Shown here: positions 493-34,420 of the stretch, one piece after another
How the letters are laid out: each line of letters starts with the position of its first letter
Position numbering within the stretch: position 1 is the first letter of the stretch
Assembly (NCBI RefSeq): GCF_014196125.1
Contig: NZ_JACIDA010000001.1
Span: 1,674,001 to 1,738,000 of the forward strand
Source: Brevundimonas mediterranea
GTDB taxonomy: Bacteria > Pseudomonadota > Alphaproteobacteria > Caulobacterales > Caulobacteraceae
DNA length: 64,000 nt
Reading direction: 5' to 3'
Notes under the pieces: generated by a model
Seen by the model: only the letters and a program-made list of their open reading frames with translations
Databases searched by the model: none
Told to the model about the DNA's origin: nothing
Made by a program: the position numbers and the translations under genes

Positions 493-2088
493 ATGTCGGA
501 AAATATGGATCTTCAGGAACGGCTTGCGTTCCTGAAGCTGGATGAAGAGTCGCGCGCCGCCCTGGCCGACACGCGTCCGGTCATCGAGGCCGCCCTGTCC
601 CAGACCCTCGACGCCTTCTACGATCAGGTGCGCGCGACGCCCGATGTCGCGCATTTCTTCAACAGCGAGACCCATATCTCCGGGGCCAAGAGCGCCCAGG
701 CCAAACACTGGTCCCTGATCGCATCGGGGGACTTCACCCCCGCCTATGTCGAAGGCGTCAGACGAATCGGCCTGACCCACGCCCGGATCGGTCTGGAGCC
801 GCGCTGGTACATCGGCGGCTACGCCCTGGTGCTGGAGGGGCTGATCAAGGCCATCGTCAAGGCGGACGCCGGCAAACGCAGCCTGTTCGGCGGCAAGGAC
901 AAGGGCGACGCCCTGGGCGCCGCCCTGGCCAGCGTGGTCAAGGCGGCCCTGCTGGACATGGATTTCGTCATCTCGCTTTACCTCGAGGCCGCCGAGGACG
1001 GACGGCGTGAGGCGGACGAGAAACGCGCCCTGGCCGAGGCCGAACAGACCCGGGTCGTTCAGGCCACCGCCGAGGCCCTGACCGCCCTGGCCGAGGGGGA
1101 TCTGACGACACGCATCCATGCGGATTTCCCCGGCAGCTACGCCCGCCTGAAGGCCGACTTCAATACGGCCATGACGCAACTGGACGCAGCCATGGCGGAG
1201 ATTTCCGGCAATACCGAAGCCATGCAGGCCGGCGCCGGAGAGATCAGCGAGGCCGCCGACGACCTGTCTCGCCGCACCGAGCAGCAGGCGGCCACTCTGG
1301 AAGAAACCGCCGCCGCCCTGGATCAGATAACCGCCACGGTGAAGAAGACCGCCGAGGGCGCGACCCAGGCGGCGACCGTCGTCGAGACCTCACGGGTCGC
1401 CGCAGAAAAGTCGAAGGACATCGTCGAACGCGCCGTCAAAGCCATGAGCGCGATCGAAACCTCCGCCGAAAAGATCAGCCTGATCATCGGCGTGATCGAC
1501 GAGATCGCCTTCCAGACCAATCTTCTGGCCCTGAACGCCGGCGTCGAGGCGGCCCGCGCCGGGGAGGCCGGTCGCGGCTTTGCGGTCGTGGCTTCGGAAG
1601 TGCGCGCCCTGGCCCAGCGTTCTGCGGACGCGGCCAAGGAGATCAAGTCCCTGATCACCGCCTCCTCGGTCCAGGTGAAGTCCGGGGTCGATCTGGTCGG
1701 CGAGACGGGCGACGCCCTGTCTTCCATCGTCAGCCGCGTCATGGAGATCGACCAACTGATGGTCGAGATCACGGCCTCCACCCAGGAGCAGTCCACCGCC
1801 CTTCACCAGGTCAATACGGCGGTGAATCAGATGGACCAGGTCACACAACAGAACGCGGCCATGGTCGAGGAGTCGACGGCCGCCAGTCACAACCTGACCC
1901 AGGAAGGGCAAAGGCTGGCGTCTCTGGTCACCCGGTTCCGTGTCACGCAGGACGGCGGCCGGAGAACGGAGCAGACGGAAAGCCGGGTGGAACGTCCCGC
2001 GCCCCGCGCCCCGGCACGCGCCTTCCGCCAGGTCGGTTCAGCCGCCCTGGCGACTTCGCCCCTGGCGAACGAATGGGAAGAATTCTGA
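493..2088 (+). CDS. Globin-coupled methyl-accepting chemotaxis protein (HemAT-like)
   Basis: This is a soluble chemoreceptor of 531 residues with no membrane segment. Residues about 5-160 form a protoglobin sensor domain, with His96 in the RIGLTHARIGLEPRWY context where HemAT proteins place the proximal heme ligand. A HAMP-like segment follows at about 190-245. The signalling domain is at about 250-480 and has the conserved hairpin [20 protein letters not shown]. The protein ends in EWEEF, an xWxxF pentapeptide of the kind used to tether CheR and CheB. It probably senses oxygen or another heme ligand and signals to CheA from the cytoplasm. I chose the ATG at 493 because upstream TTG starts would add 31 non-globin residues. 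No che gene is adjacent; a full che operon lies at 48.6-58.3 kb. Confidence 0.9.
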   Translation: MSENMDLQERLAFLKLDEESRAALADTRPVIEAALSQTLDAFYDQVRATPDVAHFFNSETHISGAKSAQAKHWSLIASGDFTPAYVEGVRRIGLTHARIGLEPRWYIGGYALVLEGLIKAIVKADAGKRSLFGGKDKGDALGAALASVVKAALLDMDFVISLYLEAAEDGRREADEKRALAEAEQTRVVQATAEALTALAEGDLTTRIHADFPGSYARLKADFNTAMTQLDAAMAEISGNTEAMQAGAGEISEAADDLSRRTEQQAATLEETAAALDQITATVKKTAEGATQAATVVETSRVAAEKSKDIVERAVKAMSAIETSAEKISLIIGVIDEIAFQTNLLALNAGVEAARAGEAGRGFAVVASEVRALAQRSADAAKEIKSLITASSVQVKSGVDLVGETGDALSSIVSRVMEIDQLMVEITASTQEQSTALHQVNTAVNQMDQVTQQNAAMVEESTAASHNLTQEGQRLASLVTRFRVTQDGGRRTEQTESRVERPAPRAPARAFRQVGSAALATSPLANEWEEF

Positions 2089-2118
2089 CGCAAGGGACCA
2101 TGCCGCGTCCCGCGCGGG

Positions 2119-4749
<2,631 letters not shown>

Positions 4750-24984: not shown

Positions 24985-25980
24985 TCATCTCACCGCGACA
25001 CGCAGGCGCCGCAGAGCCTCGGCTTCCTGTGGCGACAGCGGCAGAAGATCCATGGCCGCGTTCAGATAGCCGTCCAACGGCCCCGAAAACGGCCAGTCGG
25101 AACCTGGCGCGAAACGCTCAACGCCGATGTCGCGCATGACATCGACCAGTCGGGCCCTGTTCTCTGGCGACGTATCGGCGTCGAAGACCTGAGCCAGATC
25201 GAAGAAGAGGCCGGGAGCCATGCCGGGTTGTTCCGCCAGGATCTGGCGAAACCCTTCCAGCGCATCCCAGGTGTTCGCGTCCAGACCGCCCCAACCGCCG
25301 GAATGGGCGATGACGACGGGCGCGCCGCCGGCGTGCGGCAGGACCTGTTCGACGAAGATGCGGACGTCGCGCGCGCCATAGTCTTCGGCGCGGGTGCGCA
25401 TATGGATCATGATGGTCATCCCGGCGTCCGACGCGGCGTCGAAGACCGCCGCCAGGCGGCGGACCTGTTCGGGATCGCGAAGGTCGACGCCGGAGTTGGT
25501 CAGGTGCAGCTTCAATCCCTTGGCGTAGGGCTCGTCCTTCCAGGCGGCGATTTCGGCCAAGGCGTCGGGCGCAAGCGGATTGACCGAGACGAAGGCGACC
25601 AGCCGTCCGGGATGGGCGGCGGCCGTGGCGACGGTGAAGGCGTTGGCGTCATGAACCCGCATCGCGGCGTCAGCCAGAGGGGGAGCCATCATCGGGCTTT
25701 CGGCCAGATAGGCCGTGGACATCATCCAGGCCGTCTGGACGCCCGCCTCGTCCATGTCCGCAAGCAGATCGTCGGCCGTCAGGGGTTCGACGAAGGCCGG
25801 ATCGCACGCGCCGATACGCCCCGGACTGCTGCAATAGGCCGACAGGATGTCGAGGATGGCGGGCGAATGGACGTGGACGTGATGGTCAGTGTGAACCGGG
25901 GTGCGGGGCTGCGCCGTCCCGGGCGTCGCGGTGAGCGCGGACAGGACCGCGGTCACCGCGACGATGCGTTTGACGTTCAT
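24985..25980 (-). CDS. Exported amidohydrolase-family (TIM-barrel) hydrolase
   Basis: This is a 331-residue metal-dependent hydrolase of the amidohydrolase-2 type with an N-terminal signal peptide (cleavage near PGTAQ). Metal ligands are visible in TDHHVHVHSP, in IHMRTRAED, in VIAHSGGWGG and in the late Asp of GSDWPFSGPLDGY. Reaction unknown; relatives include decarboxylases and amidases. It starts 30 bases after the S9 peptidase stop and is probably the last gene of the riboswitch-led operon, so an amide or peptide substrate would make sense. The 230-base gap beyond its stop holds no gene. Confidence 0.82.
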   Translation of the reverse strand: MNVKRIVAVTAVLSALTATPGTAQPRTPVHTDHHVHVHSPAILDILSAYCSSPGRIGACDPAFVEPLTADDLLADMDEAGVQTAWMMSTAYLAESPMMAPPLADAAMRVHDANAFTVATAAAHPGRLVAFVSVNPLAPDALAEIAAWKDEPYAKGLKLHLTNSGVDLRDPEQVRRLAAVFDAASDAGMTIMIHMRTRAEDYGARDVRIFVEQVLPHAGGAPVVIAHSGGWGGLDANTWDALEGFRQILAEQPGMAPGLFFDLAQVFDADTSPENRARLVDVMRDIGVERFAPGSDWPFSGPLDGYLNAAMDLLPLSPQEAEALRRLRVAVR

Positions 25981-26010: not shown

Positions 26011-27951
26011 TCAGCGCGCGGCTTCGCCCAGCAGCGTCTGTTTCCAGAACAGCAGGCTGGTCCAGAAATAGTAGTCCTCGTTTTCCTTCTTGTGGAAACC
26101 GTGGCCCTCGTTCTGCGCCAGCAGGTGCCAGGCCGTGCCGCCGTGGCTGCGGACCGCGCTGACGATCTGATCGGCTTCGGACGCAGGGACGCGGGGGTCG
26201 TTGCCGCCGGTGGCGACCAGCAGCGGGATGGTGATCCTGTTGACGCTGGTCAGGGGCGAGATCGCCTGAAGCTGGGCGCGCTGGGCCGGATCACGCTCGT
26301 CGCCGTATTCCACGCGCCGCAGGTCGCGGCGGTAGGACTGGGTGTTTTCCAGGAAGGTGACGAAGTTGGAGATGGCGACGTAGCAGTTCGCCCCCTTCAG
26401 CCGGTCGCTGTAATGCACCGCCGTGGCGTAGCACATATAGCCGCCGTACGAGACGCCGGTGACGGCGAAACGCGAGGCGTCCAAGTCTGGATCGACCTCC
26501 AGGGCGTCGAGGAAGGCGCCGATGTCCTTGACCGAATTCTCTCGCTGGAACGGGCCGTTGTCCAGATTGACGAAGCGTGTGCCGTAGCCGGACGAGCCGC
26601 GCACGTTCGGGAAGAACAGCGCCACGCCCAGTTCATTCAGCAGATAGTTCTGCGCCCCCAGGAAGTCGGGACGGGTCTGGCCCTCCGGTCCGCCGTGGAT
26701 ATCGACGATCAGCGGACGTTTGCCCGGAAACTTGGCGGGGTCCGGCTGATAGAGGAACCCGGAGACGGTCTCGCCATCGAAACTCTTCACCTCAACCAGC
26801 CTGGGCTCGACGTTGACGGCGGGGTCCAGGCCGCCGGTCTCGCTGTGGGTCCACTGGGTGACCGCCAGGGTCGTCGGATCGACCGAGAAGGCGTCGCCGG
26901 ACACGCGGGCGGACGACAGGCTCAAGCCAATCGCGCCCCAGGGCGCAATGTCGATAGCCGGTCCGATGCTGTAGGGGATGACGCCGTCGGGCAGGCCGGT
27001 GACGACACGCACAGCGCCGGTGGCGACATCCATGACCTTGAGCCGGGATACGCCCGCCTCGTTGACCGCATAGGCGGCGAAGCTCCCGTCGGGGGACAGG
27101 GCATAATCGCTGACGTCCCATCGGGTCTCCGGGCTGACGGGGACGAAGCCGCTCCGCTCGATCCGCCCAAGGCGCAGGAAGTCGGAATCCTTGTTCGAGG
27201 TCGCCCAGACGGCGCCGTCGGCCGCATATTTGGGATCGACATAGGAGACCTGCGCCGCCGGATCGGTCAGGGGCGTCATGCGGCCGGACGCCAGGTCCAG
27301 CTCATAGACTACGGCGTTGTTGATCGACATCCGGTTCAGGACCAGGGCCTTGGCGCCGTCGCTGGAGAAGTCGGCGATGTTCCAGCCGCCGCCGGAGACC
27401 TGCGCGACCAGGCGGTCGCTAGATGGGTCGACGGGATCGACGACATACAGGTCCATGTCGGCGCCGTTGCGGCGGGATGAGGCGTAGCCGACCCTCTTGC
27501 CGTCCCGGCTCCAGGCGCCGAACCAGTTGCGGCTCTTGCCGTCGGTGATGCGGGTCAGCCGACCGCCGGACAGTGTGTAGAGCTGATAGAATTCGTCGCC
27601 GCCATTGTCCTTCTGGACCAGCAGGGTCTGACCGGACGGCGACAGGGCGCCGGCCAGGATCGGCTCCGCCTCGAAACTGATCTGGGTTCGGGCGCCGTCA
27701 GGGCCGGCGACGAGATGAAGCTGATCGGTCGCCCCGAACCGGGTCTTGATCAGCATCGACCGGTCGGCGGCGTTCCAGCCGAGAAAGGCGGCGCGGCGCG
27801 CCTGGAGATAGGGCTGGGTCGCGGCGACCAGATCGTCGGGCACCGCCGGCAGACCATCCGCGACGATGGCGGCGGGCTTGGGCGCCTCGGCTAGGGCCGC
27901 AGGAGCGACGCTCAGGGCGAGCAGGAGGGCCATCGGCAGACGGGGAATCAT
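26011..27951 (-). CDS. S9 family peptidase (prolyl oligopeptidase/acylaminoacyl peptidase type)
   Basis: This is a 646-residue serine peptidase with a signal peptide (residues 1-21, cleavage near ALAEA), so it acts in the periplasm or outer membrane. Residues about 40-380 form the beta-propeller that limits access to oligopeptides. The C-terminal alpha/beta-hydrolase domain has nucleophile Ser in GVSYGGYM, Asp in GGNDPRVP and His in NEGHGFHKK. It cleaves short peptides. Following a TonB receptor under a glycine riboswitch, it may process imported peptides. A stem-loop lies between it and the receptor. Confidence 0.9.
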   Translation of the reverse strand: MIPRLPMALLLALSVAPAALAEAPKPAAIVADGLPAVPDDLVAATQPYLQARRAAFLGWNAADRSMLIKTRFGATDQLHLVAGPDGARTQISFEAEPILAGALSPSGQTLLVQKDNGGDEFYQLYTLSGGRLTRITDGKSRNWFGAWSRDGKRVGYASSRRNGADMDLYVVDPVDPSSDRLVAQVSGGGWNIADFSSDGAKALVLNRMSINNAVVYELDLASGRMTPLTDPAAQVSYVDPKYAADGAVWATSNKDSDFLRLGRIERSGFVPVSPETRWDVSDYALSPDGSFAAYAVNEAGVSRLKVMDVATGAVRVVTGLPDGVIPYSIGPAIDIAPWGAIGLSLSSARVSGDAFSVDPTTLAVTQWTHSETGGLDPAVNVEPRLVEVKSFDGETVSGFLYQPDPAKFPGKRPLIVDIHGGPEGQTRPDFLGAQNYLLNELGVALFFPNVRGSSGYGTRFVNLDNGPFQRENSVKDIGAFLDALEVDPDLDASRFAVTGVSYGGYMCYATAVHYSDRLKGANCYVAISNFVTFLENTQSYRRDLRRVEYGDERDPAQRAQLQAISPLTSVNRITIPLLVATGGNDPRVPASEADQIVSAVRSHGGTAWHLLAQNEGHGFHKKENEDYYFWTSLLFWKQTLLGEAAR

Positions 27952-28044: not shown

Positions 28045-30744
28045 CTAGAAGCGGTACCGCGCGCCAACCGTGACGTACCGACCGATGACGTCGTAGTACG
28101 GCGAGTAGAGCGATCCGACCGGCGGGTCCTTGTCGAACAGATTGGTGGCGTTGGCGTATAGCTCGACACCGTTCGCACCGTAGTGCGCGAGGTCGGCCGT
28201 CAGACCCAGATCGACATAGGTGTAGGCGTCGATGTGGTTGTTCCTGATCGCGACGGTGCTGTTGTAATCGCCCTCCGAGATGTAGCGCGCCCGCAGATTC
28301 GCGCCGAACACCTCGCCCTTCCAGCCGAGGCTGGCGTTGAGGCGCAGCTTGGGCACGCCCAGGCCGAACGAATAGCCCTGAGATTTGACGTATTCGATCT
28401 CGGTCATTCCGTCGTCAGTGGTCAGACTGTTCACCCAGGTGCCGACCAGACGCATCGTCACCCGGCCCGTCGCGCCCGGCACCCAAAGGTCGGCGTCCGA
28501 GGCATAGGAGGCCTCGGCATCAATCCCGTCCGTGTGATATTCGGCTAGGTTCACATAGGTGGACAGGGTGCGCACCAGATTGCCCGCCGTGTCACGTTCT
28601 ACCTTGGTGCAGAGGTCGAGGTTGCCCTTGAAGCAGCGGGTGACCAGGTCCTGCGCCGCAATGGTCGTGATCACGTCATCGATCTTGATGTCGTAATAGT
28701 CCAGCGACAGATTGAGGCCGGGAATGGACGGCGGGGCATAGGTGACGCCCAGGGTCAGGGTGTCGGCCGTCTCCGGGCGAAGGTTGGGATTTCCGCCGCC
28801 GTTGTTCAGCACATAGACCAGGGCGCCGTTCTTGGCCGGATCATTGAGGTTGTTCCATCCGGTCGTGGTCGTCGTGAACAGTTCAGACAGGTTGGCCGAA
28901 CGGATGTCGCGTGACTGGGTGACCCGGCCCCGGAAACCCGGGAAGAACTCGTTCGTCGCACCGACCTTCCAGGACCAGATCGAACCGGTGGTGTCGTAGT
29001 CGGAGATACGCGCGGCGGCGTTGAACTGCAGATCGTTCAGAACCGGCAGGTTGCGGACGATGGGAACCAGGATCTCGCCGAAAGCCTCCTTGACGCTGAA
29101 CTCACCGGACATCGCCGAGAAGCTGAAGGTCTTGAAGGCCTTCGCAGCATCCAGTTCGCCGACGCGCTGGTCGGTCTGCTCCTTGCGGGCCTCTAGGCCG
29201 ACGGCGATCGATACCTCGCCCGCCGGCAGGCTGAAGGGCTCGCCGCGCAGGCTGATCCCGGCCACGTCCAGCTTGGTCGTTGCGCGCTGCTGCGGGGCGC
29301 CGGTGACATAGTCGATGGCTTCCTGCGACGGGGCCCCGAGGCCGAACAGATTGATCGGCACACAGCCGGAGTTGGCGTTGGTCAGGGTCACGCGGCAGAC
29401 GGCCTGGCCGGTCGATGGATTGATGACGGAATCGACGGCGTTGGCGAACTGGGTCTTCAGCAGGAAGCCAGGCGTGTCGATGTTGTTCTCGAATTCGCCG
29501 TGGCTGTAATAGGCGCCCCAGCGCCAGTTCTCGCCGAACTCGCCATCCACGGCCAGGGTCGCCTGGGTGGTCACCCGCTCGAAGTCGATCGTCGAATAGG
29601 ACAGATCGGAGTTGAAACGACCAAAGGTGAAGGACGTCTGGCCGGCGGCCGCCATCTGCTGCTTGATCGTGGAAGACAGGAAGGCGTTGTCGATGCCGAT
29701 AGTCAGGTCGCCGCGATCATGGTCGCCAAACCAGACATAGTTGTTCCACATGCGGGAATGACGGACATCAGCCGTGACCCGCAGCCTGTCGTTGATCTCG
29801 TAGACGGCGCTGGCCAGACCCGTGTAACGCCTCTGCGGCGTGACCAGCGGGCTCAGATCGTCGTTCGACGGACCTTCGCCGCCGATCGAATTCGTGCCGC
29901 TGACCGTGCCATAGTCGAACGGACGCAAGGAGCCGTCCGGGTTGAACACCATGCCGCGGTTCACACCCGACATGATCAGACCGCCATAGGCCGCGTTGGC
30001 GAATCCGACGTCCGGCGTCTGCGCGCCGTTGACCGTAGCCCAGCGGCCGATGTTGGGGCGCGAGGCCTTCGGGATGACGCCTTCGTTGTCGAGATATTCG
30101 CCGCCGACGACGAAATGGCCGCGACCGCCGGCGAAGTCCGTTCCCCAGGCGCCTTCGAACCGTTCCTGCTCGGCGTCGTCATAGGACGAGATGCCGTATT
30201 CGGCGCCCAGCTTGCCGCCGGTGAAATAGCGGTCGATGCCGATGTTGACGACGCCGGCCACGGCGCCCGATCCCCAGGCGGCGGAGGCGCCGCCGGTGAC
30301 CACGTCGACGCTCTTGACCAGGACCGACGGCACCGCGTTCAGGTCGTTCTCGCTCGACACCCGGCGTCCGTCGATCAGGACCAGGGTCCGGTTGATGCCC
30401 AGCCCCCGCAGGTCCACCGGCGCATTGCCCGCGCCGGTGTTGGTGCCGGTCGTCTGGGCCGAGGTGGTGGCGCGGAACTGGGGCATGTCGTTCAGCGCGG
30501 CCGCGATATTGGGGCGCGCGCCCACCGACAGATCCTCAGCGGTCAGGTGGATGGTCGGCGTCGGCGCTTCGAAGCCGGCGCGATCAATACGCGAGGCGGT
30601 GACGACGATATCGTCGACCGCGGCGGTTTCCGGAGAGCCCTCCGTCTCCTGGGCTTGGGCCGCCGTGGCGCAGGCCAGCAGGGCGATGGCGCTGCAATAT
30701 TGGGTCAAGTGACGATTAAGACGAGACAAAGCGAGATTCCTCAT
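28045..30744 (-). CDS. TonB-dependent receptor under glycine riboswitch
   Basis: This 899-residue outer-membrane transporter has a signal peptide (cleavage near AAQAQ), a TonB-box region (DDIVVTASRIDRAG), a plug with GLGINRTLVLIDGRRV and GGASAAWGSGAVAGVVNI, and a long barrel ending in GARYRF. It belongs to the receptor type common in Caulobacterales and Xanthomonadales that is often paired with peptidases. Substrate unknown. The start ATG 30744 has a strong GGGGAGGGG about ten bases upstream. A tandem glycine aptamer occupies its leader, so its expression should respond to glycine; with the downstream S9 peptidase this suggests uptake of glycine-containing peptides (inference). Confidence 0.9.
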   Translation of the reverse strand: MRNLALSRLNRHLTQYCSAIALLACATAAQAQETEGSPETAAVDDIVVTASRIDRAGFEAPTPTIHLTAEDLSVGARPNIAAALNDMPQFRATTSAQTTGTNTGAGNAPVDLRGLGINRTLVLIDGRRVSSENDLNAVPSVLVKSVDVVTGGASAAWGSGAVAGVVNIGIDRYFTGGKLGAEYGISSYDDAEQERFEGAWGTDFAGGRGHFVVGGEYLDNEGVIPKASRPNIGRWATVNGAQTPDVGFANAAYGGLIMSGVNRGMVFNPDGSLRPFDYGTVSGTNSIGGEGPSNDDLSPLVTPQRRYTGLASAVYEINDRLRVTADVRHSRMWNNYVWFGDHDRGDLTIGIDNAFLSSTIKQQMAAAGQTSFTFGRFNSDLSYSTIDFERVTTQATLAVDGEFGENWRWGAYYSHGEFENNIDTPGFLLKTQFANAVDSVINPSTGQAVCRVTLTNANSGCVPINLFGLGAPSQEAIDYVTGAPQQRATTKLDVAGISLRGEPFSLPAGEVSIAVGLEARKEQTDQRVGELDAAKAFKTFSFSAMSGEFSVKEAFGEILVPIVRNLPVLNDLQFNAAARISDYDTTGSIWSWKVGATNEFFPGFRGRVTQSRDIRSANLSELFTTTTTGWNNLNDPAKNGALVYVLNNGGGNPNLRPETADTLTLGVTYAPPSIPGLNLSLDYYDIKIDDVITTIAAQDLVTRCFKGNLDLCTKVERDTAGNLVRTLSTYVNLAEYHTDGIDAEASYASDADLWVPGATGRVTMRLVGTWVNSLTTDDGMTEIEYVKSQGYSFGLGVPKLRLNASLGWKGEVFGANLRARYISEGDYNSTVAIRNNHIDAYTYVDLGLTADLAHYGANGVELYANATNLFDKDPPVGSLYSPYYDVIGRYVTVGARYRF

Positions 30745-30769
30745 GGCGACGACGCCCCTCCCCAGGGAT

Positions 30770-30822
30770 GCCCAATGCGACTGACGCTCTTCGGCGTCCG
30801 TTCGCCCCCGCTGTCATTGGGC
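30770..30822 (-). promoter_or_regulatory. Putative expression platform of glycine riboswitch
   Basis: The conserved 3' strand of aptamer two contains GCCCAATG (minus strand, 30822-30815), and a perfect complement CATTGGGC lies at 30777-30770, just upstream of the ribosome site. The 37 bases between hold a second hairpin GACGC-CGAAGA-GCGTC (30798-30783). Pairing of the 8-mers would disrupt the aptamer and change access to the GGGGAGGGG site. No T run follows, so control of translation is more likely than termination. Confidence 0.5.
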
Positions 30823-30983
30823 CTGAGAGTTTCGGGTCGTCGCCGACCCTTTCTCCTTCGGCGAGACCGCATCCCCCGGATCCGGCCTTCTCTCCAGCGT
30901 TCCTTCAGCAAGACGGTCCGTTTGCCTGAGCGTTTCCGGGGCGGTTGCGCCTTCGGCGTCGGCCGGAGCCGATCTCTCCCGCC
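30805..30983 (-). ncRNA. Glycine riboswitch, tandem aptamers
   Basis: On the minus strand two gcvT-type glycine aptamers follow each other. Aptamer one (30983 to about 30903) shows GGGAGAG, CGCCGAAGGCGCAA and GCTCAGGCAAACGGAC. Aptamer two (about 30898-30805) shows GGAGAG, CGCCGAAGGAG and AAACTCTCAGGCCCAATGACAG. These are the conserved core elements of the class. The linker is short, as in cooperative tandem forms. It sits 61 bases ahead of the TonB receptor start, with no other gene between. Glycine riboswitches usually control gcv genes or amino-acid symporters, so this target is unusual. Confidence 0.95.
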
Positions 30984-30999
30984 TTGCTGAGATGAGTAA

Positions 31000-31023
31000 G
31001 ATCAACCCTGACCGCCCTGTCAA
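31000..31023 (-). promoter_or_regulatory. Candidate sigma-70-type promoter of riboswitch transcript
   Basis: On the minus strand TTGACA (31023-31018) is followed after ten bases by GGTTGATC (31007-31000), close to the Caulobacter housekeeping pattern TTGACG-N10-14-GCTANAWC. Transcription would begin near 30993, about ten bases before the first aptamer. The remaining bases up to 31197 hold no gene. Confidence 0.5.
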
Positions 31024-31197
31024 ATCGACAAATACGGCACTTATTTTGCGCTCATGACATAATACATGGTTTTATCGTGCCGGCGCGAACCAGGCGGGCC
31101 AGATCAAGACCCCATGTTGCAAGCGACGGGCATCCGCATGACGGCGTCGTGACAGAAAGGGAGGCTTCGGACTGAATGGACTTATCCACAGGAACGG

Positions 31198-32313
31198 TCA
31201 GGGCGCAGCCGGATCCGCCGGCGCTCTGACGCCGTGACGCATCGCTTCCCCCCACCGGGTGAGCAGGGTCGCGCGACGCGCCTGATCCAGATTGGCCAGC
31301 AGGGCGGGTCCCACCCGAACCGGCCGAACGCCCGGCGCGGCGGGACGGACAGGCGCATCGACATCGTCGCGGACCGGTCGAACGCCCAGGGCTCCGATCA
31401 CCCGCTGGCCTTCACGCGACAGAAGGAAGTCCAGAAACAGCCGCGCCGCATTCGGATGGGCGGCGTTGCGCGGGATGAAGGCCACGCGTGAAACGGACAG
31501 ATGATAGTCGTCAGGCGTGATCAATCCGATCTCAGGCGCGCGCGCGGCCCATGACGCGCCGTACGACTGGTTCATATTATAGGCGAACGCCATCCGCCCA
31601 TCGGCGATTTGACTCATCATTCTCCGCCCGGAGGTGTCCAGCCGCGGACGCTGCGCGCCCAGCGCCTCCATCAACGACCAGGCTTCAGGATAGATCTGCA
31701 CGTCCGCCGAAAGCTGCATCAGGGCCACGCCGCTCCGTTCGGCGTCGTAGAGGGTGACACGACCGTCAAAGAGCTCGGGGCGGGTCTTGAGCAGCCGAAG
31801 CAGATCCGCATGACTGCGGGGCACGACATCGGTCATGAGCCGGCGTCGATTATAGGCGAACACGATCGGCTCGGCCGTCAGGCCATAGCCCTGGTCGCGC
31901 CATACCGAACCGTCGGGCATGGCCGCACGATGCGGCGACCGGTAGGCCTGAGCATAGCCGTCGTTGATCAGCTTGACCTGCACGTCCATCGCCGTGCTCC
32001 AGACCAGGTCCGGCCCCTCCTGGCCCGCAGCCGCGAGCCCCCGAACCTCCTCGGCGATCCGAGTGGAGTTTTTGTCGTCCAGACGTACCCTGATCTCAGG
32101 CCAGCGACGACGAAAGGCCTCCAGCACCGGCCCCATCAGACTGGTGTTGGTGAGGATGTGAAGCGCCCCCTCGCGGCGGGCCAGCCAACGCACCCGCGGC
32201 GCCGTGCCCGCGCCCTCCGGCTCCGACGAACAACCGGCGGCGCTCAACACCGCCGTCCCTCCCGCCAGCCCGCCCGCCAGGCTTACGAGCAGATCTCGCC
32301 GATCCGGCTTCAC
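31198..32313 (-). CDS. ABC transporter solute-binding lipoprotein (family 1)
   Basis: This is a 371-residue periplasmic binding protein. The N-terminus (KPDRRDLLVSLAGG then a lipobox SAAGC) suggests a twin-arginine lipoprotein. The body resembles iron(III)- and small-anion-binding proteins (LHILTNTSLMGPVLEAFRRRWP, GPDLVWSTAMDVQVKLINDGYAQ, RVAFIPRNAAHPNAARLFLDFLLSREGQRVIG). No permease or ATPase gene is adjacent. GTG start at 32313. It is divergent, by 56 bases, from a TctD/TctE-like regulator and kinase, so it may deliver ligand information to the kinase rather than serve a transporter. Confidence 0.82.
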   Translation of the reverse strand: MKPDRRDLLVSLAGGLAGGTAVLSAAGCSSEPEGAGTAPRVRWLARREGALHILTNTSLMGPVLEAFRRRWPEIRVRLDDKNSTRIAEEVRGLAAAGQEGPDLVWSTAMDVQVKLINDGYAQAYRSPHRAAMPDGSVWRDQGYGLTAEPIVFAYNRRRLMTDVVPRSHADLLRLLKTRPELFDGRVTLYDAERSGVALMQLSADVQIYPEAWSLMEALGAQRPRLDTSGRRMMSQIADGRMAFAYNMNQSYGASWAARAPEIGLITPDDYHLSVSRVAFIPRNAAHPNAARLFLDFLLSREGQRVIGALGVRPVRDDVDAPVRPAAPGVRPVRVGPALLANLDQARRATLLTRWGEAMRHGVRAPADPAAP

Positions 32314-32369
32314 CGGCCCCGCTTTCTGGTTATTGTGTCATCCATGATCCGTCGCCCCATCGCCTCGCC

Positions 32370-33032
32370 ATGAGAATACTCGTTGTCGAAGATGACAAGG
32401 CGCTACGGCATTCGCTCGAAGCCACTCTGCATGAGGCAGGTTTCGAGGCGAGATGCATCGACAGCGGCGAACAGGCCTTGCGCCTCGAAAGCTCAGAGGT
32501 CTTCGACGCCGCCATCCTGGACATCGGCCTTCCCGACATCGACGGCTTCGAAGTGCTGAGAACCCTGAGGCTGCAGGGATCATCGACCCCGGTTCTCATG
32601 CTGACGGCGCGTGACGCCCTCAGCGACCGGGTCGCGGGCCTCGACCTCGGGGCCGACGACTATCTGGTCAAGCCGTTCGCCCCGTCGGAGTTGGTCGCAC
32701 GTCTCCGCGCCATCGTGCGCCGACGCCAGGGACAGGCCGCCGGCGCGGTCGTGGTCGGAACCCTTTTCTGCGACTGGCGCACCGGGCGCGCCCACGTCAA
32801 CGACCGCGACCTCGCCCTGCGCCCCCGCGAATGGGCGGCCCTGCGCGTCCTGGCGTCCCGACCTGGACAGGTGGTGGACCGCGACCTGCTGGCCGCCGAG
32901 GTCTTTCCGCAGGACGAGGCGCCGTCGCTCAATGCGCTGGAAATCCACGTCGGCCGTTTGCGACGCAAGCTTCAGCCGGACGGACCGGCTGTGACCAATA
33001 TCCGTGGCCGCGGGTATCGCCTCGATCCATGA
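32370..33032 (+). CDS. OmpR-family response regulator, TctD-like
   Basis: This is a 220-residue regulator: receiver (1-118; acceptor Asp in AAILDIGLPDIDG, Lys in DYLVKPFAPSE) and winged helix (about 128-220; NALEIHVGRLRRKL, IRGRGYRLDP). It resembles TctD/QseB types. Its TGA overlaps the kinase ATG (ATGA at 33029), so the pair is coupled. The divergent solute-binding gene shares the short promoter region and is the obvious target. Confidence 0.9.
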   Translation: MRILVVEDDKALRHSLEATLHEAGFEARCIDSGEQALRLESSEVFDAAILDIGLPDIDGFEVLRTLRLQGSSTPVLMLTARDALSDRVAGLDLGADDYLVKPFAPSELVARLRAIVRRRQGQAAGAVVVGTLFCDWRTGRAHVNDRDLALRPREWAALRVLASRPGQVVDRDLLAAEVFPQDEAPSLNALEIHVGRLRRKLQPDGPAVTNIRGRGYRLDP

Positions 33033-34420
33033 GCCTCGCCCGGCCTGCCCGTTCCCACAGCCTGGTCACACGTCTGCTGATCGCACAGGTGGCCCCTCTG
33101 GCGCTCTTCGCGGTCGTCGTTCTGGCGGTCGGCGCCTGGACGGCCCAGCGGGTGGTGGCGAACAATGCGGACCGCCTGCTGGCCGGCGCGCTTCAGACCA
33201 TCCGCGAGACGGTGTCGGTCGCGGAGGGTCGCATCACCGTGGATGTCGCGCCCTGGGCCTTGGCTCTGCTGGACGGTCCCGAGCGTGACGCCGTCTTCTA
33301 CAGCGTCCGCGAAGGCGATCGCCTCGTCACCGGCTATGCCGAACTGCCCAATCTCCTCGAGGCCCGAACGGAGGAGCCGGTCTTCGCGGACCTGTCCGTC
33401 CGGGGGGTTTCGGTGCGTATGGCGCAACAGACCCTGATCATCCCCGGCCGCGACGCCCCCATCCGCGTCTCGGTGGCCCAGAGCCTGGATTCCCGTCGCG
33501 CCAGCCTGAGAGAGCTCTACCGCAGCATGCTGCTTCTCCCCGGCCTGCTGGTGGTGCTTGCCGCGCTTCTGATCTGGCCGGCCCTGCAATGGGGCCTGAA
33601 CTCGCTGAAGCGTCTGATCGACGATCTGACGCGCCGCCCCAGCCCCTCTGCCGACTTCGCCCCGGCCAATGTCGATCTGGCGCCGCGCGAATTGTGGCCC
33701 GTTCTGAACGCCTTCAACCATCTGCTGGCGCGGCTCGAGGCTTCCACTTCCGGCATTCAACGGTTCGCGGCCGACGCCTCGCATCAACTGCGCACGCCGC
33801 TGTCGGTCCTCTCCGCCAATCTTGACCTTCTGGCCGGCTCCTCCCGCCCCTGGACGGCTCAGGAACGGCGGTTGATCGCAGACTCTCGCGACGCCGTCGG
33901 CGGCATGACGCGGCTGGTCGGTCAGTTGCTGTCGACAGCCCGGGCCGACGGGGCCCGGATAGACACCGCCGCCGACCTCGGCCGCGCGGCGCGCCGCGCC
34001 TGTCAAGCCGCTCGGGACCGCCGCGCCTTTGCCGACGGCGCCCTGCGCCTTCGGCTTCCGGCCGAGCCGGTCATTGTCCTCGGCGCCGAAGACCTCATCA
34101 CCGAACAGATCCTCAACCTGATCGACAACGCCTTCCACCACGGCGCGCCGCCGGTGGTCGTTCATGTCCGCATGACGGGCCGACAGGCCGCTGTCTGCGT
34201 CTGGGATCACGGACCGGGCGTGGATGAAGCCGTCCTTCCCCACCTCACCGACCGCTTCTTCCGCGCCGGCTCATCCCAGACGCCCGGCTCCGGCCTCGGC
34301 CTGGCGATCGTTCACACCCTCTCCGAGGCCCAGGGCGCAAAGTTCAAGCTGTGCAATCGCGGGGGTGCGCGAACCGGACTTGTGGGGGAGATCGTTTTCC
34401 AGCTTCGGAACATGGGCTGA
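33029..34420 (+). CDS. Sensor histidine kinase with 2CSK_N domain, TctE-like
   Basis: This is a 463-residue membrane kinase. A transmembrane helix (about 17-39) is followed by a periplasmic 2CSK_N domain (about 45-175: TIRETVSVAEGRITVDVAPW, DAVFYSVREGDRLVTGYAEL), a second helix (about 176-198), HisKA with ADASHQLRTPLSVLS, and HATPase_c (NLIDNAFHHG, GSGLGLAIVHTLSE). 2CSK_N kinases such as TctE detect carboxylates, sometimes with a binding protein. Neighbours support a three-component system with the divergent solute-binding lipoprotein. Confidence 0.88.
   Translation: MSLARPARSHSLVTRLLIAQVAPLALFAVVVLAVGAWTAQRVVANNADRLLAGALQTIRETVSVAEGRITVDVAPWALALLDGPERDAVFYSVREGDRLVTGYAELPNLLEARTEEPVFADLSVRGVSVRMAQQTLIIPGRDAPIRVSVAQSLDSRRASLRELYRSMLLLPGLLVVLAALLIWPALQWGLNSLKRLIDDLTRRPSPSADFAPANVDLAPRELWPVLNAFNHLLARLEASTSGIQRFAADASHQLRTPLSVLSANLDLLAGSSRPWTAQERRLIADSRDAVGGMTRLVGQLLSTARADGARIDTAADLGRAARRACQAARDRRAFADGALRLRLPAEPVIVLGAEDLITEQILNLIDNAFHHGAPPVVVHVRMTGRQAAVCVWDHGPGVDEAVLPHLTDRFFRAGSSQTPGSGLGLAIVHTLSEAQGAKFKLCNRGGARTGLVGEIVFQLRNMG

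Follow-up and report, generated by a model that had tools for sequence, protein, structure and literature searches.

Two tandem aptamers of the glycine riboswitch class lie directly upstream of, and probably in the leader of, a TonB-dependent receptor (TBDR) gene of Brevundimonas mediterranea, and the same pairing of riboswitch and receptor recurs in three genera of the Caulobacteraceae. The window analyzed here is a stretch of 64,000 nucleotides (assembly GCF_014196125.1, contig NZ_JACIDA010000001.1, positions 1,674,001 to 1,738,000 of the forward strand), and all window positions are counted from its first letter. Judged from its sequence, the Caulobacteraceae element is a known riboswitch class with a new type of target. 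It is very probably a working riboswitch, which would adjust the output of the receptor (TBDR1), in an operon with a peptidase and an amidohydrolase, to the intracellular glycine level.

Two full-length glycine aptamers precede a receptor operon

The covariance model RF00504 matched the minus strand of the window twice, each time over model positions 1-94, and both scores exceeded the family's gathering threshold of 32 bits. Taken together, the aptamers cover 30801-30991, and the genes downstream of them follow in the order TBDR1, S9 peptidase, amidohydrolase.

30904-30991, minus strand: glycine aptamer 1 (RF00504, 69.5 bits, E 2.1e-12)
30801-30907, minus strand: glycine aptamer 2 (RF00504, 59.6 bits)
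28045-30729, minus strand: TonB-dependent receptor TBDR1 (PF00593, PF07715; open reading frame from ATG 30744, proposed start TTG 30729)
26011-27951, minus strand: S9 peptidase (PF00326, 101.7 bits; best solved relative, amino acyl peptidase 5l8s)
24985-25980, minus strand: Amidohydro_2 protein (PF04909, 57.2 bits) with an apparent signal peptide at its N-terminus

The program cmscan listed aptamer 1 alone and omitted one lower-scoring overlapping match, because aptamer 2 shares four bases with aptamer 1. An earlier, sequence-only reading had claimed a tandem glycine riboswitch on this strand and had named the RF00504 model as a check; class and arrangement were borne out, whereas the extent that it had given, 30744-30983, has to be replaced by the span above. 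Its proposed target, a TonB receptor followed by a peptidase, was likewise recovered by Pfam, with plug (PF07715, 62.5 bits, cut-off 23.9) and barrel (PF00593, 110.2 bits, cut-off 27) domains in TBDR1 and a Peptidase_S9 domain in the next gene. The label of lasso-peptide isopeptidase (NF033523) was rejected for the S9 gene (27.6 bits, cut-off 400).

The whole genome (3.41 Mb) contains four RF00504 matches, which form two tandem loci. The second locus (C1:65086-65281) precedes a frame of 371 amino acids, which was taken as gcvT because the near-identical locus of another Brevundimonas assembly (G105) is gcvT by Pfam.

The riboswitch accompanies TBDR1 across the Caulobacteraceae

RF00504 matches were present in 128 of the 131 Brevundimonas genomes, and 11 genomes had four. 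A TBDR1 orthologue was found in 10 of the 131, with the riboswitch directly before the receptor in all 10 (L001, L005-L013). The eleventh assembly with four matches, G105, has gcvT behind a tandem riboswitch at both of its loci (L170, L171), a pair that could reflect a duplication or mixed strains.

Among the 390 Caulobacteraceae genomes, TBDR1 was detected at E 1e-150 or better in 37 and with at least 70% identity in 24 (10 Brevundimonas, 12 Caulobacter, and 2 Phenylobacterium). The name Caulobacter comes from a C. zeae 410 contig, of which a 2826-base stretch matches G273 at 100%. The riboswitch precedes the receptor in all 24, so that the pairing, which the sequence-only reading had suggested looking for in other Caulobacterales, does occur in Caulobacter and Phenylobacterium. 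When 20 family loci outside Brevundimonas were scanned, RF00504 was found at the 14 with at least 70% identity (L125-L138) and was absent from the six with 39-52% identity (L139-L144). The S9 gene follows TBDR1 in 23 of 23 genomes examined (the window, L045-L050, L052, L059, and L125-L138; G096 was left out). In Phenylobacterium sp. J426 (G333, L060/L138), TBDR1 and the S9 gene are each split into two frames, perhaps by long-read assembly errors.

Further receptor types lie behind glycine riboswitches

A second receptor type of about 800 amino acids (TBDR2), a TBDR by Pfam with a BLASTP E of only 0.43 against TBDR1, is present at E 1e-150 or better in 65 of the 390 family genomes. In Caulobacter, RF00504 was located upstream on the same strand at 22 of the 30 best TBDR2 loci (15 of 15 in one set and 7 of 15 in the other). 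All 75 Caulobacter genomes have RF00504, and each of the 28 with at least three matches has a riboswitch-TBDR1 or riboswitch-TBDR2 locus. An M19 dipeptidase is encoded next to TBDR2 at 13 of the 22 riboswitch loci and also in G240, where the element is absent. At the remaining nine, no M19 dipeptidase was found within the stretch covered; the next tested frame has no Pfam match at four of them, and an opposite-strand frame comes next at two.

TBDR2 starts some 300 nt past the CTCAGG end of aptamer 2 (953 to 1253 in L168), and given this distance the receptor may have a promoter of its own. In the TBDR2 leaders (L168 and others), the riboswitch is followed by a long AT-rich region, which might contain a second promoter or small-RNA target sites. 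The equation of TBDR2 with CC3461/CCNA_03574 of C. crescentus, a TBDR whose message is tied to CrfA and SisA, was dropped without being disproved, TBDR2 not having been placed in that genome; in a term search, neither "riboswitch" nor "glycine" occurred in the main text of PMC12559287.

In Phenylobacterium, RF00504 was detected in 93 of 101 genomes. TBDR1 is present in G307 and G333, and four others (G299, G312, G281, and G326) have three RF00504 matches. Two of these, G299 and G312, carry a third receptor, TBDR3, behind RF00504 (L301, L302), and a penicillin-amidase-family protein follows it in L301, the one locus examined for this. At L300 (G281), a riboswitch at 441-595 precedes genes for serine dehydratase and serine hydroxymethyltransferase (634-3338, plus strand).

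Taking the 24 TBDR1, 22 TBDR2, and 2 TBDR3 cases together and subtracting the three genomes with both TBDR1 and TBDR2 (G210, G211, and G228), a glycine riboswitch precedes a TBDR in at least 45 of the 390 family genomes, a lower bound because weaker loci were left unscanned.

Two control samples served for comparison. The first comprised 76 alphaproteobacterial genomes, 48 of them with RF00504; the 46 outside the Caulobacteraceae yielded 48 loci, whose targets were gcvT (46), a glutamine-synthetase-domain gene (1), and serine dehydratase (1). The second comprised 90 genomes of the phylum, 29 with RF00504, and 29 loci were followed, four of them shared with the first sample; the targets were gcvT (19), gcvP (1), a DAO-type oxidoreductase (6), a sodium:alanine symporter (2), and a glycine transporter (1). 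No TBDR stood behind RF00504 in either sample (0 of 48 loci in the first, 0 of 29 in the second); given the modest size of the two samples, rare cases may exist elsewhere. At L194 (G418), the riboswitch near 1501-1599 precedes the glutamine synthetase catalytic domain gene (1840-3099, plus strand), a target unnamed in the surveys examined.

Aptamer structure and ancestry

Both aptamers can be aligned across the 24 TBDR1 leaders. The core of aptamer 1 is invariant, and compensatory changes occur at 10 of 40 consensus pairs. A pseudoknot between P3b of aptamer 1 and a G tract behind aptamer 2 can form in 24 of 24 TBDR1 and 22 of 22 TBDR2 leaders; RF00504, a single-aptamer model, cannot score it.

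30938-30943, minus strand: CGCCCC in P3b of aptamer 1, one side of the pseudoknot (complementary to 30803-30808)
30803-30808, minus strand: GGGGCG just after P1 of aptamer 2, the other side (complementary to 30938-30943)

In the alphaproteobacterial sample, the two sides covary (CGCTCTC/GAGAGCG in L178, GTCTTGT/ACAAGAC in L248). The mean score of matched sides was 5.83, compared with 5.08 (standard deviation 0.09) for permuted partners, and none of 2000 permutations scored as high, in a test that was uncorrected for relatedness and used 45 of the 48 rows (L189, L231, and L249 were dropped). Covariation is very strong across the gcvT loci of this sample (L172-L199, L230-L248), the paired letters being entirely different in L178, L183, and L248. 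The available part of PMC13104608, citing Torgerson et al., places this pseudoknot in 66% of aminomethyltransferase riboswitches. As it was already known, the pseudoknot was used here as a membership feature only.

For the tree, 117 of 124 tandem elements were extracted (7 were missed by the pattern) and 15 were left out, leaving 102. In it, the riboswitches before TBDRs cluster according to their target and separately from the gcvT elements of their own genomes, with support of 100/99 for the TBDR2 elements, 97/67 for the TBDR1 elements of three genera, and 91/89 for both types together. This separation suggests that the element has remained with its receptor and was not derived anew from gcvT. 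The tree speaks against new copies from gcvT in each genus, although its TBDR1 and joint groups are not firm.

Leader layout and receptor start

Riboswitch and receptor lie on the same strand, and promoter-like boxes precede aptamer 1. The TTGACA that the sequence-only reading had noted just upstream of the aptamers is present at 31023-31018 and is followed 17 nt on by CTTACT.

31018-31023, minus strand: TTGACA, −35-like box (in 10 of 10 Brevundimonas leaders by eye)
30995-31000, minus strand: CTTACT, −10-like box, not TATAAT-like (TTACT in 10 of 10 Brevundimonas leaders by eye)
30760-30778, minus strand: CTCAGGCCCAATG, which might pair instead with the 3′ side of aptamer 2 (tentative; z −1.77, the best duplex of the window leader)
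30738-30742, minus strand: proposed Shine-Dalgarno (SD) sequence GAGGA (from its position and the conserved SD-start block)

The spacer between the boxes varies among the 10 leaders. A scan for the sigma-70 consensus reported no site, because the second box does not resemble TATAAT.

The receptor probably starts at TTG 30729-30727 and not, as had been claimed, at ATG 30744, 61 bases past the riboswitch. The counterpart of this ATG in B. bullata (L049) is out of frame and runs into a stop after seven codons. In addition, an SD-start block is common to the Caulobacter and Phenylobacterium relatives, where TTG or ATG follows a block like AGGGGATCTCGTTTG; its counterpart in the window is GAGGAATCTCGCTTTG. 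In the 10 Brevundimonas leaders, 85-92 nt separate the 3′ strand of aptamer 2's P1 from the start; in the other 14, the distance is 123-152 nt.

Proposed mechanism and alternative explanations

These arrangements suggest that the intracellular glycine level sets the amount of import receptor made. That glycine controls nutrient entry at the outer membrane, perhaps the uptake of peptides rich in glycine, had been proposed in the sequence-only reading, and control of an outer-membrane receptor is still the best reading, since the riboswitch is found at 24 of 24 family orthologues and at two other TBDR types; as to the nutrient, however, the neighbouring genes point only to amide-bonded compounds. 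According to the proposed mechanism, transcription would start close to aptamer 1, as the boxes indicate. Glycine would then bind both aptamers in a gcvT-like fold with the P3b/G-tract pseudoknot, a fold that the aligned leaders support. The ensuing change around P1 of aptamer 2 would affect either the translation of the receptor message or its termination by Rho. Acting as an ON switch, the element would let glycine freed from imported peptides or amides raise receptor and gcv together. A scan of the minus strand of 30500-31250 revealed no intrinsic terminator, which makes translational or Rho-dependent control likelier. The gcvT riboswitch of N. gonorrhoeae is described, in the available part of PMC13104608, as a translational ON switch without an intrinsic terminator.

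Several results weigh against this proposal. When the 24 leaders were folded with P1 of aptamer 2 present or absent, SD exposure did not change consistently. Downstream sequence was also searched for a stretch complementary to the 3′ side of aptamer 2; z was −1.6 to −2.7 in 6 of the 10 Brevundimonas leaders and −1.7 in L125, but over all 24 leaders no such stretch was outstanding (mean z −0.16). RF00504 was also absent at 8 of the 30 best TBDR2 loci and at 7 of 7 scanned TBDR1 orthologues outside the family (L053-L058 and L113, 60-69% identity, from Sphingomonas, Novosphingobium, Rudaea, a Lysobacterales bin, and Luteimonas), and is therefore not essential to these receptors. The order receptor, S9 peptidase, amidohydrolase is kept at L053, L054, L055, and L058 without the element, so the operon is older or wider than its riboswitch.

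Regarding the sign of control, an ON switch is most likely, with a probability that we put somewhat above even, because the element is of the gcvT type and has the pseudoknot. The main alternative, an OFF switch by which sufficient intracellular glycine would shut the receptor operon as feedback on uptake, is a serious possibility, though its probability falls below even. Product control of uptake genes is usual for riboswitches. Moreover, the glycine riboswitch before a sodium:alanine symporter gene of S. pyogenes lowers expression with glycine, according to the available part of PMC5829553. The Caulobacteraceae element, however, is gcvT-like in its pseudoknot, and a terminator of the S. pyogenes kind was not found on the strand searched; both points are weak evidence.

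It is very unlikely that the element is a variant with an altered pocket for another ligand. Variants of the glycine riboswitch that reject glycine are known (PMC9481103, available part), and aptamer 2 of the window has GAGAAAG compared with AGCAAG in 16 of the 24 leaders; nevertheless, the central part of aptamer 1, from CGCCGAAGG to CTCAGGC, does not vary among the 24 leaders and exactly matches the gcvT element of the same genome. It is very improbable that the element has no function at TBDR1, being a relic or recently copied from the gcvT riboswitch: three genera retain it before this receptor, with compensatory changes, and the tree places it far from the gcvT element of its own genome. 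Hardly more credible is a haem-type receptor with glycine read as the precursor of 5-aminolaevulinate, which alphaproteobacteria make from glycine: TonB-hemin (TIGR01785) is the best NCBIfam score of TBDR1, but its 90.9 bits are far under the family cut-off of 316.85, so that the label was rejected, and the neighbouring genes encode a peptidase and an amidohydrolase.

With glycine control of the receptor as the preferred reading, the enzymes encoded behind the receptors bear on the cargo. The S9 peptidase, the M19 dipeptidase, and the one penicillin-amidase-family protein behind TBDR1, TBDR2, and TBDR3, respectively, all act on amide bonds; such an enzyme usually follows the receptor in two TBDR types and does so at least once in the third. 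Peptides or N-acyl amino acids would therefore be the likeliest cargo, although the nine TBDR2 loci without an amide-bond neighbour weigh against making this a rule. More speculatively, and in our estimate more doubtful than probable, the three TBDR types could form an outer-membrane glycine regulon of the Caulobacteraceae, built of feed-forward ON switches through which released glycine would call for both the receptor and breakdown by gcvT.

A two-component system next to the operon

The genes on the other side of the riboswitch encode a solute-binding protein, which adjoins a response regulator and a 2CSK_N kinase (31198-34420); together they are possibly a sensing set for the receptor operon.

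31198-32313, minus strand: solute-binding protein encoded directly upstream, a possible sensor partner (PF13416, 57.9 bits)
32370-33032, plus strand: response regulator, divergent (PF00072, PF00486)
32831-34420, plus strand: sensor kinase with a 2CSK_N domain (PF08521, PF00512, PF02518; coordinates of the longest frame, within which the real start probably lies further inside)

A relative of the binding protein or of the kinase, or of each, was found near the receptor in all of the 22 other Caulobacteraceae genomes examined (G096 left out) and at none of the loci L053-L058 outside the family. The two-component system may be a second layer of control on the receptor operon.

Comparison with known systems

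Cobalamin and TPP riboswitches at TonB receptors, and glycine riboswitches at genes of glycine metabolism and inner-membrane carriers, were known before. The targets given by Sun 2013 are glycine metabolism, glycine transporters, and serine metabolism, with the rest as 'Miscellaneous'. Term searches found neither "TonB" nor "Caulobacter" in Crum 2019 and none of Caulobacter, Brevundimonas, or receptor in a 2025 survey of contiguous riboswitches. No report of a glycine riboswitch linked to a TBDR was found in searches of the open-licence literature, supplementary tables being outside this scope; priority is uncertain, as Table S1 of PMC4117421, with its four riboswitch-bearing leaders of C. crescentus, and the gene lists of PMC3766115 could name one. 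Caulobacter crescentus has more than 60 orphan TonB receptors, according to the available part of PMC11005374. If the proposal is true, the level of a TonB receptor would be set by an amino acid not expected to need such a receptor, and the ligand of a riboswitch would offer a clue to the cargo of orphan receptors.

One of the closest known systems is the gcvT tandem glycine riboswitch (RF00504), with which the element shares two full-length aptamers, the same core, and the P3b/G-tract pseudoknot; it differs in forming a separate tree group and in its target, a TBDR-peptidase operon instead of glycine cleavage genes. The sodium:alanine symporter riboswitch of S. pyogenes is likewise a glycine riboswitch on an uptake gene, but as far as the available part of PMC5829553 describes it, it acts by glycine-dependent transcription termination on an inner-membrane carrier, whereas the target here is an outer-membrane receptor and a terminator was not found. 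Cobalamin and TPP riboswitches, the former in PMC5756330, also stand before TonB-dependent receptor genes (PMC5756330 and PMC2211319, available parts); they belong to other classes, and their ligand or its kin is the cargo of the receptor, in contrast to the amino acid sensed here.

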